From an uncultured Acidobacteriota bacterium (lineage in GTDB: Bacteria; Acidobacteriota; Vicinamibacteria; Vicinamibacterales; CAVVIG01), in contig CADEDC010000044.1 of assembly GCA_902825985.1 (NCBI GenBank), forward strand, positions 5,495 through 48,049: DNA of 42,555 nt, written 5' to 3'. A program made the position numbers and the translations under genes. Below the pieces are notes generated by a model, which worked only from the letters and a program-made list of their open reading frames with translations, did no database searches and was not told where the DNA came from. This document shows, piece after piece, positions 15,399-19,452 of the stretch; positions within the stretch are counted from its first letter, which is position 1; each line of letters opens with the position of its first letter.

Positions 15399-15427
15399 TT
15401 GACCTTTGCCCGGCTCGTCTCTATACT
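15399..15427 (+). promoter_or_regulatory. strong sigma-70-like promoter of the asd-dap leader
   Basis: TTGACC (15399-15404; 5 of 6), exactly 17 bp, then TATACT (15422-15427; 5 of 6). The predicted transcript start is about 15434-15436, a few bases before the first arm of the structured leader. Confidence 0.75.
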
Positions 15428-15439
15428 AACTGCCTACAT

Positions 15440-15515
15440 GCGTCCCGCAGCCCACACGCGAAAGTGCACCACTCGAAAGCGGGTCACCCGTGTCGGAGGT
15501 TTGCTGCTCGGACGC
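15440..15515 (+). ncRNA. riboswitch-like leader domain of the asd-dap operon
   Basis: About 76 nt that can fold into one long closed element by hand pairing: GCGTCC 15440-45 with GGACGC 15510-15; GCAG 15447-50 with CTGC 15504-07; ACACG 15454-58 with CGTGT 15489-93; GTG and ACC (15464-66, 15468-70) with GGTCAC (15482-87). Unpaired CGAAA (15459-63) and a CGAAAG-containing terminal loop lie inside. The 3' side contains CCCGTGTCGG (15487-96), which can instead pair with the terminator arm downstream. No known riboswitch class is recognised. An alternative reading is a short leader peptide frame (15438-15518). Confidence 0.55.
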
Positions 15516-15561
15516 TAAGTCTTTTCCCTCTCAGTTCGCGAGCGCTCACGGCCGACACGGG
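15487..15561 (+). promoter_or_regulatory. candidate antiterminator pairing
   Basis: CCCGTGTCGG (15487-15496) is the exact 10-nt reverse complement of CCGACACGGG (15552-15561). The second segment is also most of the 5' arm of the terminator stem, so the two pairings exclude each other. Forming this helix would block termination and allow asd transcription. Confidence 0.6.
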
Positions 15562-15584
15562 ACATCCGCGTCGGCTTTTTTTTT
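15551..15584 (+). terminator. intrinsic terminator/attenuator in the asd leader
   Basis: The stem 15551-15560 with 15566-15575 has 9 base pairs and one A-C mismatch (GCCGACACGG against CCGCGTCGGC), a 5-nt loop, and is followed directly by nine T residues (15576-15584). It lies about 115 nt upstream of asd and about 120 nt after the promoter, so it acts as an attenuator or ends a small RNA. Confidence 0.8.
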
Positions 15585-15586
15585 GA

Positions 15587-15608
15587 CTGCCGGACCCCAG
15601 GCCGGCAG
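15587..15608 (+). promoter_or_regulatory. second hairpin after the attenuator
   Basis: CTGCCGG (15587-15593) and CCGGCAG (15602-15608) form a perfect 7-bp stem with an 8-nt loop directly after the T-tract. It may stabilise read-through mRNA. The remaining 89 nt to the asd start contain no other clear element except the ribosome binding site. Confidence 0.45.
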
Positions 15609-15697: not shown

Positions 15698-16735
15698 ATG
15701 ATTCCCGTTGGCATTCTCGGCGCGACCGGCATGGTCGGCCAGCAGTTCATCGCCTGTCTCGCCAATCACCCGTGGTTCACGGTCGACTGGCTCGGCGCCA
15801 GCGAGCGCTCGCAGGGCAAGGCGTTCCGCGATGCCGCCGCCTGGCGGCTGGCGGCGGCCTGCCCGGACGACATTGCGACCAAGATCGTCGAGCCGGCGGC
15901 GCCCGGCAACGCTCCGAAACTCGTGTTCTCGGGCCTCGATTCGTCGGTTGCCGGCGAGATCGAAGCGGCGTTTGCCGCCGCCGGTCACGTGGTCGTCAGC
16001 AACTCGCGCAACTATCGCATGGAGCCGACGGTGCCGCTGCTCATCCCCGAGGTCAACCCCGACCACCTCGAGCTGCTGAAGGCGCAGAGCGCCGCGACCG
16101 GCTGGAAGGGCAGCATCGTGACCAACCCGAACTGCTCGACCGTCGTGCTGGCGATGGCCCTCGCGCCCCTCCGCCAGTTCGGCCTGAAGACCACCCTGGT
16201 GACGACGCTGCAGGCGATTTCCGGGGCCGGCTATCCTGGCGTGCCGTCGTGGGACATCCTCGGGAACGTGATCCCCTACATCGGCAGCGAGGAGGACAAG
16301 GTCGAGAGCGAACCGCGCAAGATCCTCGGCGCGCTCGCCGGCGACCGGATCGAGAACCATCCGGTGACGATCAGCGCCACGACGACGCGGGTGCCGGTGC
16401 AGAACGGCCACACGATGTCCGTGTCGGTCGGGCTCGAGCACAGGCCGACCGCCGAGGCGATGATTGCCGCGTGGAACTCGTTCCGCGGGCTGCCCCAGGA
16501 ACTCGGACTGCCGACCGCGCCGGCGCAGCCGATCGTCTATCGCACCGAGCCGAACCGGCCGCAGCCGCTGCTCGACGTCAACCGCGACAATGGCATGACG
16601 GTCACGATTGGCCGGCTGCGCGAGTGCCCGTTGTTCGACTACAAGTTCGTCGCCCTGGGGCACAACACGATTCGTGGGGCCGCCGGCGCCGCGATTCTGA
16701 ATGCCGAGCTGATGCACACGCGGGGAATTCTGTAA
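15698..16735 (+). CDS. asd: aspartate-semialdehyde dehydrogenase, archaeal/fungal type
   Basis: Reduces L-aspartyl-4-phosphate to aspartate semialdehyde with NADPH, the branch point of lysine/diaminopimelate, threonine and methionine synthesis. 345 residues. N-terminal nucleotide-binding GATGMVGQQF (about 8-17), catalytic Cys146 in TNPNCSTVV, and a histidine in GLEHRP (about 248). The stretch GYPGVPSWDILGN and the overall pattern match the archaeal/fungal-like subfamily rather than the E. coli type. The ATG at 15698 has AGAGGA (15687-15692) at 5 nt; an upstream GTG at 15626 lacks such support. First gene of the dap operon behind the attenuator. Confidence 0.93.
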   Translation: MIPVGILGATGMVGQQFIACLANHPWFTVDWLGASERSQGKAFRDAAAWRLAAACPDDIATKIVEPAAPGNAPKLVFSGLDSSVAGEIEAAFAAAGHVVVSNSRNYRMEPTVPLLIPEVNPDHLELLKAQSAATGWKGSIVTNPNCSTVVLAMALAPLRQFGLKTTLVTTLQAISGAGYPGVPSWDILGNVIPYIGSEEDKVESEPRKILGALAGDRIENHPVTISATTTRVPVQNGHTMSVSVGLEHRPTAEAMIAAWNSFRGLPQELGLPTAPAQPIVYRTEPNRPQPLLDVNRDNGMTVTIGRLRECPLFDYKFVALGHNTIRGAAGAAILNAELMHTRGIL

Positions 16736-16789
16736 CAATGAAGGCGATCTCAGTTTGACAGGCGCCGGCCGCAGGGCGGGCCGCAGGTG

Positions 16790-17485
16790 ATGCGCATCCT
16801 GATTGTCGGATACGGGAAGATGGGTCGGCTCGTCGAGAGCCTCGCGCCGCAGTACGGGGCCGAGGTCGTCGGCGTGGTCGATCCGCAGTCCTCGGTGCAC
16901 GACGCCGCGGCCGACGACGATCGGTGGGCCGGGGCCGTCGATGTCGCCATCGATTTCTCGATGGCCGACGCGGTGACCGCCAACGTGCCGGCGCTCGCGA
17001 CGCGGGGTATCGACATCGTCCTCGGCACCACCGGATGGCAGCAGCACGAGGCGGCGCTGCGCGCGGCGGTTGCGGCGGCCGGCACCGGCATCGTCGCCGC
17101 GCCGAATTTCGCGACCGGCGTCGTCCTTTTCGAGGCGATCGTGCGCTATGCGGCGCAACGGTTCGCCGATCAGCCCGACTTCGGCGCCTGGCTGCACGAG
17201 TCGCACCACGGGGCGAAGAAGGATGCGCCGTCGGGAACCGCGCTGTTCCTCAAGAAGGCGATGCAAGCCGGCGGCTTCACCCGCCCGATCGACATCTCGG
17301 TGACGCGGGCCGGTTTCATTCCCGGCACGCATACCATCGGCTTCGACGGGCCGTCGGACTCGATCACCCTGACCCATGCGGCGCGTGACCGCGGCGCCTT
17401 CGCCCGCGGCGCCCTCGCGGCGGCGCGGTGGGTGCACGGCAGGCACGGCTGGTTCGACATGCACGACGTGCTCGGACTTCGATAG
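16790..17485 (+). CDS. dapB: 4-hydroxy-tetrahydrodipicolinate reductase
   Basis: 231 residues. Converts hydroxytetrahydrodipicolinate to tetrahydrodipicolinate with NAD(P)H. Visible: Rossmann motif GYGKMGRLV at the N-terminus, GTTGW near residue 80, PNFATGVVLF, and the signature H-E-S-H-H-G-A-K-K-D-A-P-S-G-T-A (about 136-152) containing the catalytic His and Lys. Slightly shorter than the usual about 270 residues. ATG 16790 follows a GCAGG site; an in-frame GTG lies one codon upstream. Second gene of the operon; the asd-dapB gap is 54 bp. Confidence 0.93.
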   Translation: MRILIVGYGKMGRLVESLAPQYGAEVVGVVDPQSSVHDAAADDDRWAGAVDVAIDFSMADAVTANVPALATRGIDIVLGTTGWQQHEAALRAAVAAAGTGIVAAPNFATGVVLFEAIVRYAAQRFADQPDFGAWLHESHHGAKKDAPSGTALFLKKAMQAGGFTRPIDISVTRAGFIPGTHTIGFDGPSDSITLTHAARDRGAFARGALAAARWVHGRHGWFDMHDVLGLR

Positions 17486-17522
17486 GCCCGGCGGGCCGGG
17501 CAGGAGAAGACAGGTATCAATC

Positions 17523-18431
17523 ATGAGAACCCGATGGACTGGCGTGGGGACGGCGCTCGTCACCCCATTCACCCGCAGTGGTGAACTGGACGAGCCGGCG
17601 GTCCGCCGACTGGGTCGGCGACAGATCGACGCCGGCGTCCATTTCCTCGTGCCGTGCGGCACGACCGGCGAGAATCCAACCCTGTCGCTGGGCGAACGCA
17701 TCCGCATCGTCGAGATCCTGGCCGAGGAAGCCGCCGGCCAGGTGCCGATTCTCGCCGGCGCCGGCGGCTACGACACACGCGAGATCATCCACCTGGCCGC
17801 CGAGATGCTGAAGGCCGGTGCCTCCGGCCTGCTCTCCGTCACCCCGTACTACAACAAGCCGACCCAGGAAGGGCTGTATCAGCACTTCCACGCCATCGCG
17901 TCGAGCACGCCGCTGCCGATCGTTCTCTACAACGTGCCGGGACGCACGGGCGTCAACCTCGAGCCGGCCACCGTCGCCCGCCTCGCCGCCCTTCCCAACA
18001 TCGTCGGCATCAAGGAGGCGTCCGGCAACATCTCGCAGATGTGCGAGGTCTGCCACGTCGTGCCGTCGGAGTTCATCGTGTTGTCGGGCGACGATGCGAT
18101 CACGCTGCCGTTGATGGCGGTCGGCGGCCGCGGCGTCATCTCGGTGGCGTCGAACGAGGTGCCGGCGGAGATGGTGCAGATGGTCGAGGCGGCCGAGCAT
18201 GGCGACTTTGCCACGGCCCGTCTCGTTCACGATCGACTGCTGCCGCTGATGCAGATCAACTTCATCGAATCCAACCCGGGACCGGTCAAGGCCGCCATGG
18301 CGGCGATGGGGCTCCTCGACGAGCACTTCCGCCTGCCGATGGTGCCGCCCAGGGCCGACTCGAAGGCGCGCATCGTGCGCGTGCTGAAGTCGCTCGAGCT
18401 CCTTCGGCAGGCCGCGCCGCACGTGCACTAG
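17523..18431 (+). CDS. dapA: 4-hydroxy-tetrahydrodipicolinate synthase
   Basis: 302 residues, a TIM-barrel aldolase condensing pyruvate with aspartate semialdehyde. Schiff-base Lys164 in VGIKEASGN; catalytic tyrosines Y110 in TPYYNKPTQEG and Y136 in LYNVPGRTG; GTTGEN (about 45-50) holds the third member of the triad. Start ATG 17523 follows an AGGAG (about 17500) with longer spacing. In the operon it lies 37 bp after dapB. Feedback inhibition by lysine is usual in the family but cannot be judged here. Confidence 0.95.
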   Translation: MRTRWTGVGTALVTPFTRSGELDEPAVRRLGRRQIDAGVHFLVPCGTTGENPTLSLGERIRIVEILAEEAAGQVPILAGAGGYDTREIIHLAAEMLKAGASGLLSVTPYYNKPTQEGLYQHFHAIASSTPLPIVLYNVPGRTGVNLEPATVARLAALPNIVGIKEASGNISQMCEVCHVVPSEFIVLSGDDAITLPLMAVGGRGVISVASNEVPAEMVQMVEAAEHGDFATARLVHDRLLPLMQINFIESNPGPVKAAMAAMGLLDEHFRLPMVPPRADSKARIVRVLKSLELLRQAAPHVH

Positions 18432-18438
18432 GCGTCAC

Positions 18439-19452
18439 GTGGCCGTACAGACCGCGATCGATCCCGTTGCGCTCACCTGCGCCCTCGTGGATATCGACTC
18501 CACGACCGGCTGCGAGGCGGCGGTCGGCCAGTGGTTGGCCCGCTACCTGCGCGACCTCGGCTACACCGTCACCGAGCAGCGGGTCGACGGCACCCGCTTC
18601 AACGTGCTGGCGACCGTCGGCCCGCCGACGGTCGTCTTTTCCACCCATTTCGATACCGTGCCGCCGTTCTTCCCGAGCCGGGTCGAGAACGGCCGGATCT
18701 ACGGCCGTGGGTCGTGCGACGCCAAGGGCATTCTCGCGGCGCAGGTCACGGCGGTGGAGCAGCTGCGTGCCGCCGGTGAAGGGCGCGCCGGGCTTCTCTT
18801 CGTCGTCGGCGAGGAGCGCGGCAGCGACGGTGCCCGGGTCGCCAACGAGACCGCCGCCGGGTGCCGCTATCTGATCGACGGTGAGCCGACCGATCTGCGG
18901 CTCGGGGTGGCGACGCGCGGCGTCCTGCGGCTCAAACTGCGCGCCGCCGGCCGGGCCGCCCATTCCGCCTTTCCCGAGCTCGGTGCGTCGGCGATCGACG
19001 CGTTGATCGACGCGCTGATCGAGCTGCGCACGATCGCGCTGCCCGCGGATGCGGTGCTCGGCCGCACCCACTACACCATCGGCCTCATCAACGGCGGCGT
19101 CGCACCGAACGTCGTGTCGCCGTCGGCCTGGGCCGAGGTGATGTTCCGCACCGTCTCCGATGCCGCCGACGTGCTGACGGCGGTTGCACCGCTGCGCCAG
19201 CGCGTGGACATCGAGCAGCTGCTCGACGTGCCGACGGTGCGGCTGCTGACGGTCCCCGGGTTCGACAGCGCGGTGTTCCACTACACGACCGACGTGCCCT
19301 TCCTGACGAAGTGGGGACAGCCGCTCCTCTACGGGCCCGGCTCGATCCAGGTGGCGCATACCGCCGACGAATCGCTCTCCATCGACGAGCTGTATGCGGC
19401 GATCGACGGCAACGTCCGCCTCGCCCGCCAACTGCTGGCCAGGCCCTCGTGA
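18439..19452 (+). CDS. M20 family deacylase, candidate DapE
   Basis: 337 residues of the M20 di-zinc peptidase family. Ligand and catalytic residues: H70 and D72 in STHFDTVPP, D94 region in GRGSCDAKG, the E-E pair in VGEERGSDG (about 128-129), D about 152 in DGEPTD and a C-terminal H in QVAHTADES. The central dimerisation domain starts near RAAHSAFPE. Placed directly after dapA, it most likely removes the N-acyl group in diaminopimelate synthesis (DapE-like), although ArgE- or LysK-type specificity cannot be excluded. GTG start 7 bp after dapA. Confidence 0.78.
   Translation: MAVQTAIDPVALTCALVDIDSTTGCEAAVGQWLARYLRDLGYTVTEQRVDGTRFNVLATVGPPTVVFSTHFDTVPPFFPSRVENGRIYGRGSCDAKGILAAQVTAVEQLRAAGEGRAGLLFVVGEERGSDGARVANETAAGCRYLIDGEPTDLRLGVATRGVLRLKLRAAGRAAHSAFPELGASAIDALIDALIELRTIALPADAVLGRTHYTIGLINGGVAPNVVSPSAWAEVMFRTVSDAADVLTAVAPLRQRVDIEQLLDVPTVRLLTVPGFDSAVFHYTTDVPFLTKWGQPLLYGPGSIQVAHTADESLSIDELYAAIDGNVRLARQLLARPS

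Follow-up and report, generated by a model that had tools for sequence, protein, structure and literature searches.

A probable lysine-codon leader peptide attenuator upstream of asd-dapB-dapA in the acidobacterial order Vicinamibacterales

The genes asd, dapB and dapA of an uncultured acidobacterium lie together in a 42,555-nucleotide stretch of DNA (contig CADEDC010000044.1 of assembly GCA_902825985.1, positions 5,495 to 48,049), the whole of which we refer to as the window. The genome from which the window comes comprises 5.85 Mb in 174 contigs. Among the acidobacteria, Luteitalea pratensis has been placed in subdivision 6 (PMC5900883). An earlier note, made from the letters of the sequence, had named these three genes and described a strong promoter and a terminator in front of them. 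The gene identities were borne out by TIGRFAM matches above the respective cut-offs, and the promoter (TTGACC at 15399-15404 and TATACT at 15422-15427, separated by 17 nt) and the terminator (15551-15575, followed by nine T at 15576-15584) are both present in the sequence. The features of the locus are as follows.

15399..15427, + strand: sigma-70 type promoter, TTGACC-17-TATACT, identified from the sequence and from the spacing in relatives, most of which have TATACT 9-13 nt 5' of the leader ATG
15438..15518, + strand: predicted, nearly leaderless leader peptide gene, MRPAAHTRKCTTRKRVTRVGGLLLGR; frame kept in 23 of 23 testable genomes of the family, with like frames in 11 families
15456, 15468, 15471 and 15486, + strand: Thr codons near the Lys codons, from codon positions
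15462..15464, + strand: first putative Lys control codon, AAG, from codon position and Lys enrichment
15477..15479, + strand: second putative Lys control codon, AAG, 13 nt 5' of the antiterminator arm and 39 nt 5' of the stop codon, a spacing common to most of the family
15490..15496, + strand: 5' strand of antiterminator helix A, GTGTCGG, pairing with 15552-15558
15506..15510, + strand: 5' strand of antiterminator helix B, GCTCG, from the fold; it would lie under a ribosome standing at the stop codon
15539..15543, + strand: 3' strand of antiterminator helix B, CGAGC, from the fold; helix conserved in relatives
15551..15584, + strand: intrinsic terminator, hairpin plus nine T, -17.3 kcal/mol
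15552..15558, + strand: segment shared by the 3' strand of helix A and the 5' arm of the terminator, from helix pairing and folds
15698..16735, + strand: asd, aspartate-semialdehyde dehydrogenase of archaeal type (TIGR00978, 426 bits, cut-off 301)
16787..17485, + strand: dapB (TIGR00036, 127 bits, cut-off 122)
17520..18431, + strand: dapA (TIGR00674, 335 bits, cut-off 206)
18439..19452, + strand: ArgE/DapE-like M20 deacylase (top matches TIGR01892 and TIGR01910, both under cut-off)

The usual gene row in the relatives checked was asd, aspartate kinase, dapB, dapA, a DapD-like protein and an M20 peptidase; dapB, dapA and the M20 protein were named by similarity to the window's proteins, and the kinase and the DapD-like protein from their sequences, without HMMs. 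In the window's genome an aspartate kinase gene is on a separate contig and has no leader, and no leader of the asd type was seen before either lysC or hom. Two families (f8 and f14) have asd after lysC in a longer row, with no leader between the two genes, and a search directly upstream of lysC inside that row found none. A terminator followed by a small open reading frame, starting MHANQAPGTTTIRTT and ending GYGYGV, lies upstream of the homoserine dehydrogenase gene of the window's genome (locus L215, about positions 790-990), and this frame is perhaps a peptide precursor. WhiB was absent from the window's genome, though it was found in an actinobacterial control.

Between the promoter and the terminator lies a predicted short open reading frame, running from an ATG at 15438 to a TAA ending at 15518, which the earlier note had overlooked. 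In a BLAST comparison of relatives, most of the family proved to have this region in front of asd. All of these genomes contain a short frame there, which would encode a peptide such as MQPAQFTRKRTTRKRVTRVGGMLLGR (in the sister genome), MTFLTSDTRKWTGRKRVTRVGGVVLDR or MRFTSDAAILSLKKSKCIGRKRAGRVGECVLEQ. One family member (G003) has asd without leader or terminator. When 27 genomes were scanned with a covariance model built on the family's element, 24 gave a single strong hit each, located in front of asd; no second copy was convincing in any of the family genomes, the next best match having an E value of 3e-4.

We used the changes in leader length among relatives to examine the reading frame. 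The anchors (the -10 box, the ATG after it and the GTCGG of the antiterminator arm) were chosen blind to frame and could be set in 22 relatives, giving 23 genomes with the window. The distance from the ATG to the antiterminator arm took eight values (48, 54, 57, 63, 66, 72, 75 and 93 nt), all of them divisible by 3, with the proviso that a few of these genomes have a second GTCGG-like word elsewhere, out of frame. The distance from the stop codon to the arm had no bias toward multiples of 3. The ATG lies 10 nt past the -10 box in the window and 8 to 13 nt past it in 21 of the 23 genomes. The transcript is therefore probably nearly leaderless and, judged from the position of the promoter, would start at about 15434.

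To count codons, we selected leaders by a stop codon 15 to 50 nt 5' of a terminator, ignoring Lys, which gave 49 leaders. Three of these picks (G055, G084 and G112) were wrong or doubtful; for later tests, two were swapped for the frame consistent with their family and one was dropped. Lys made up 8.6% of the residues of the 49 leaders versus 1.1% in six neighboring proteins of the window, a 7.6-fold enrichment in an amino acid of the downstream pathway, and at least one Lys was present in 48 of them. In the remaining two frames of the leader regions, Lys accounted for 0.9% and 4.9%. Thr was enriched 2.2-fold (10.6% in the 49 leaders versus 4.8% in the neighboring proteins). The number of Lys codons per leader is low, with two in the window. 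In the window and in other leaders, most Lys codons are directly preceded by the rare Arg codon CGA (CGA-AAG).

Arg itself occurs in all 49 leaders and is enriched 1.6-fold, and CGA is overused about 2.3-fold (it makes up 70 of the 224 leader Arg codons versus 37 of 273 in neighboring genes). These numbers would suit a leader that senses arginine, or one in which translation slows at rare CGA codons, with lysine incidental. We think this unlikely: the enrichment of Lys is much above that of Arg, the genes downstream make lysine, and several leaders (in families f10 and f2) have KR or PKR without CGA. Arg, or slow decoding of CGA, may nevertheless contribute to the signal.

The position of the Lys codons also pointed to lysine. 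The Lys codon nearest to the arm on its 5' side stands, in most of the family, exactly 13 nt 5' of GTGTCGG and 39 nt 5' of the stop codon; in one member (G010), a Thr codon, ACG, occupies its position. A ribosome covers about 12 to 13 nt downstream of the codon in its A site, so a ribosome stalled at this Lys codon would free exactly the antiterminator arm.

Stalling might instead be caused by the peptide itself, the basic sequence RKRxxRVGG arresting in the ribosome tunnel upon a small molecule and not for want of a charged tRNA. The RKR..RVGG sequence is well conserved inside the window's family. However, RVGG overlies the GTCGG of the antiterminator arm, which can account for its conservation, and the leaders of other families have lost the RVGG part and retain Lys codons. 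Nascent-peptide arrest therefore appears improbable.

The intrinsic terminator lies between the leader frame and asd. A terminator was present in 49 of the 49 selected leaders by selection. As the earlier note had observed, CCCGTGTCGG at 15487-15496 is exactly complementary to CCGACACGGG at 15552-15561, in the 5' arm of the terminator. Folding bore out its view that the terminator and the antiterminator are mutually exclusive. Free RNA from 15490 to 15562 adopted the antiterminator fold (-28.5 kcal/mol), and with a ribosome placed at the stop codon the terminator alone remained in the window's fold. Over 18 relatives, 88% of the cells of helix A were paired versus 27 to 68% in slid controls, and a B-type helix of 5 to 10 bp was found in all 18. 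Across 48 leaders the antiterminator was better than in shuffled sequences (mean z of -1.8; mean rank of 0.14). At least half of the terminator arm was paired upstream in 44 of the 48, and the paired share of the arm averaged 0.66 in real leaders versus 0.48 in shuffled ones. The antiterminators of families f3 and f7 were not above shuffles. Swapping leaders and arms between families, a weak test, gave a suggestive P value of about 0.06. Since no compensatory base changes were found in the antiterminator helices within the family, the sharing of the terminator 5' arm by an antiterminator is supported by conservation and energy. In equilibrium folds the terminator was usually favored, even with a ribosome at Lys, and a kinetic advantage of the antiterminator therefore has to be assumed, as is customary for such switches.

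The earlier note had taken the folded region at 15440-15515 as a domain closed by four helices and had proposed an attenuating riboswitch or leader with a lysine, threonine or other aspartate-family signal. The attenuator with its tie to lysine or threonine is supported, and so is the leader, its frame with Lys and Thr codons being conserved; the riboswitch is not, the helices of the supposed aptamer being unconserved. In the window the region does close on itself by a GCGTCC/GGACGC helix, and its fold was slightly better than shuffles (z score of -1.94, with 10 of 200 shuffles equally good). In relatives, though, this closing helix is as a rule absent: the longest head-to-tail helix averaged 5.9 nt over 24 genomes versus 5.7 nt in shuffles, which led us to reject an aptamer. 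The length of the region varies freely among relatives, in steps of 3, and what other families have in common with it is the codons and the layout alone. Scanning against Rfam, at the gathering score and at E values up to 10, gave no match to any family, in agreement with the earlier view that the element is not a known lysine riboswitch, T-box or SAM class; T-boxes were ruled out in this way. The covariance model of the lysine riboswitch (RF00168) matched neither at the element nor anywhere in the window's genome. It is thus very doubtful indeed that these 76 nt serve as an aptamer that binds lysine, threonine or a further aspartate-family compound.

Although regulation at this locus is deduced from sequence, a plain upstream terminator accompanied by a chance reading frame and without regulation is hardly credible, because about 61 genomes, from 11 families, have retained the frame, codons, terminator and spacing.

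The reading that we favor, and regard as likely from the sequence comparisons, is that the element is a translation-coupled transcription attenuator of the trp/thr type, mediated by a ribosome on a leader peptide, which would sense lysyl-tRNA, probably together with threonyl-tRNA, and control asd-dapB-dapA. Transcription would begin at about 15434, and a ribosome would load at the nearly 5'-terminal AUG. When lysyl-tRNA is scarce, the ribosome would stall at the Lys codon at 15477 (or at that at 15462) and cover the RNA to about 15489. The segment 15490-15510 could then pair with 15539-15558 through helices A and B, which would consume the 5' arm of the terminator and allow readthrough into asd-dapB-dapA. 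When lysyl-tRNA is plentiful, the ribosome would reach the stop codon (15516) and mask the 5' strand of helix B, leaving the antiterminator unseeded, so that the terminator at 15551-15584 would form and transcription would end. Threonyl-tRNA is probably a second signal, read through the Thr codons that adjoin the Lys codons; this fits asd, whose enzyme stands at the branch leading to Lys, Thr and Met.

We looked across the order for similar leaders and found a leader and terminator before asd in about 61 genomes from 11 families, a count made up of the selected leaders and further genomes read by eye. The frames in the 11 families are homologous or analogous to the leader of the window. Lys codons were present in 57 of the roughly 61 leaders despite the divergence of the other residues, as in LPVTIIRKRMPKRAMLKKAGAGGVRL (f2), AMRKEMKIKRASRKRVPRAAAVYIHV (f10) and TRKSDAKKCDERKKRVHRVGGVVLER (f1). 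Four leaders, in G030, G052 and G061 (f5) and G087 (f11), had Met codons instead of Lys codons, for example MSMPMMAMRMTSIGG. It looks as if these Met-rich leaders are a methionine-reading form of the same switch. In G061 no dap genes follow asd. Met-rich, Lys-free leaders before asd were observed at loci L112, L140 (G061), L155 (G030), L159 (G052) and L160 (G087), and include MRMMAMRM, MSMPMMAMRM and RLMSMRSYSIGG. Several leaders of family f4 were rich in Thr and Ile and had one Lys (TIITITVTTRKR); at L060, L062, L063 and L101 of this family, Thr/Ile-rich leaders (MTRTIITITVTTRKRELDSARGWLVYAS) precede an asd-kinase-dapB-dapA row. Upstream of asd in G090 (L077) is a frame built of repeats, MTRVVTGLPVKKCGPVRKCGPVKECGPVKKCPPAINFS, in which Lys and Cys codons are numerous; a terminator was not found there. 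Of 40 genomes examined from outside the order, G199 (L194) alone had a comparable leader; it belongs to a distant family of the phylum (f45) and has MSAACARKRKTAKKTTPQGGRGSVL and a terminator before asd. This leader may be either ancestral or newly arisen.

Leader-peptide attenuators are classical for amino acids other than lysine, and T-boxes are among the controls of lysine genes. The lysine riboswitch is another (PMC1262725). Like the element described here, that riboswitch (L-box) puts lysine-pathway genes under transcription attenuation, but it does so through a large aptamer (182 model positions) and without translation. At the lysine operons of Actinobacteria, no conserved RNA regulatory structure was seen (PMC1262725). 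We found no lysine-codon leader peptide in the open-access literature searched, and one may be described in other literature.

The thrABC leader of enterobacteria, thrL, with its Thr and Ile codons, is similar in that its short peptide contains codons for amino acids of the pathway it regulates, in that antiterminator and terminator have one arm in common, and in that a single leader reads several amino acids; the f4 leaders even resemble thrL of E. coli in composition. The present element differs in that asd(-lysC)-dapB-dapA follows, in that Lys is the constant codon, and in its nearly leaderless start and its phylum; no sequence relation was found, Rfam giving no match. With the trp attenuators of Proteobacteria and Actinobacteria (PMC1262725) it would share the freeing of the antiterminator by a stall at control codons and its blocking by a ribosome at the stop codon, but those have Trp codons in a run, whereas here one to five Lys codons are dispersed, with Thr between them. 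The polycysteine short open reading frames of mycobacteria, in the account of Canestrari et al. (2020) cited in PMC9094748, are likewise leaderless and rich in codons for the amino acid of the downstream genes, cysteine there and lysine here. No conserved terminator hairpins were seen there (PMC1262725), in contrast to the strong intrinsic terminator found here. In its working, the acidobacterial element would be trpL- or thrL-like, and it shows those features of such attenuators that can be read from sequence; what would be new is the amino acid sensed and the taxon.

We suggest, more tentatively, that it is possible for one leader to read several amino acids of the aspartate family (Lys with Thr here, and Thr/Ile with Lys, or Met, elsewhere), and for related families to have exchanged one control codon for another within a switch that was itself retained, making the signal evolvable codon by codon. 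Attenuators have been predicted in Acidobacteria, and a function has been associated with almost none of them (PMC2965389). If our reading is right, it would give a function to an acidobacterial attenuator that spans a whole order, and the leaders would form a natural series, from Lys through Lys with Thr and Thr/Ile to Met, for how such sensors switch their signal.
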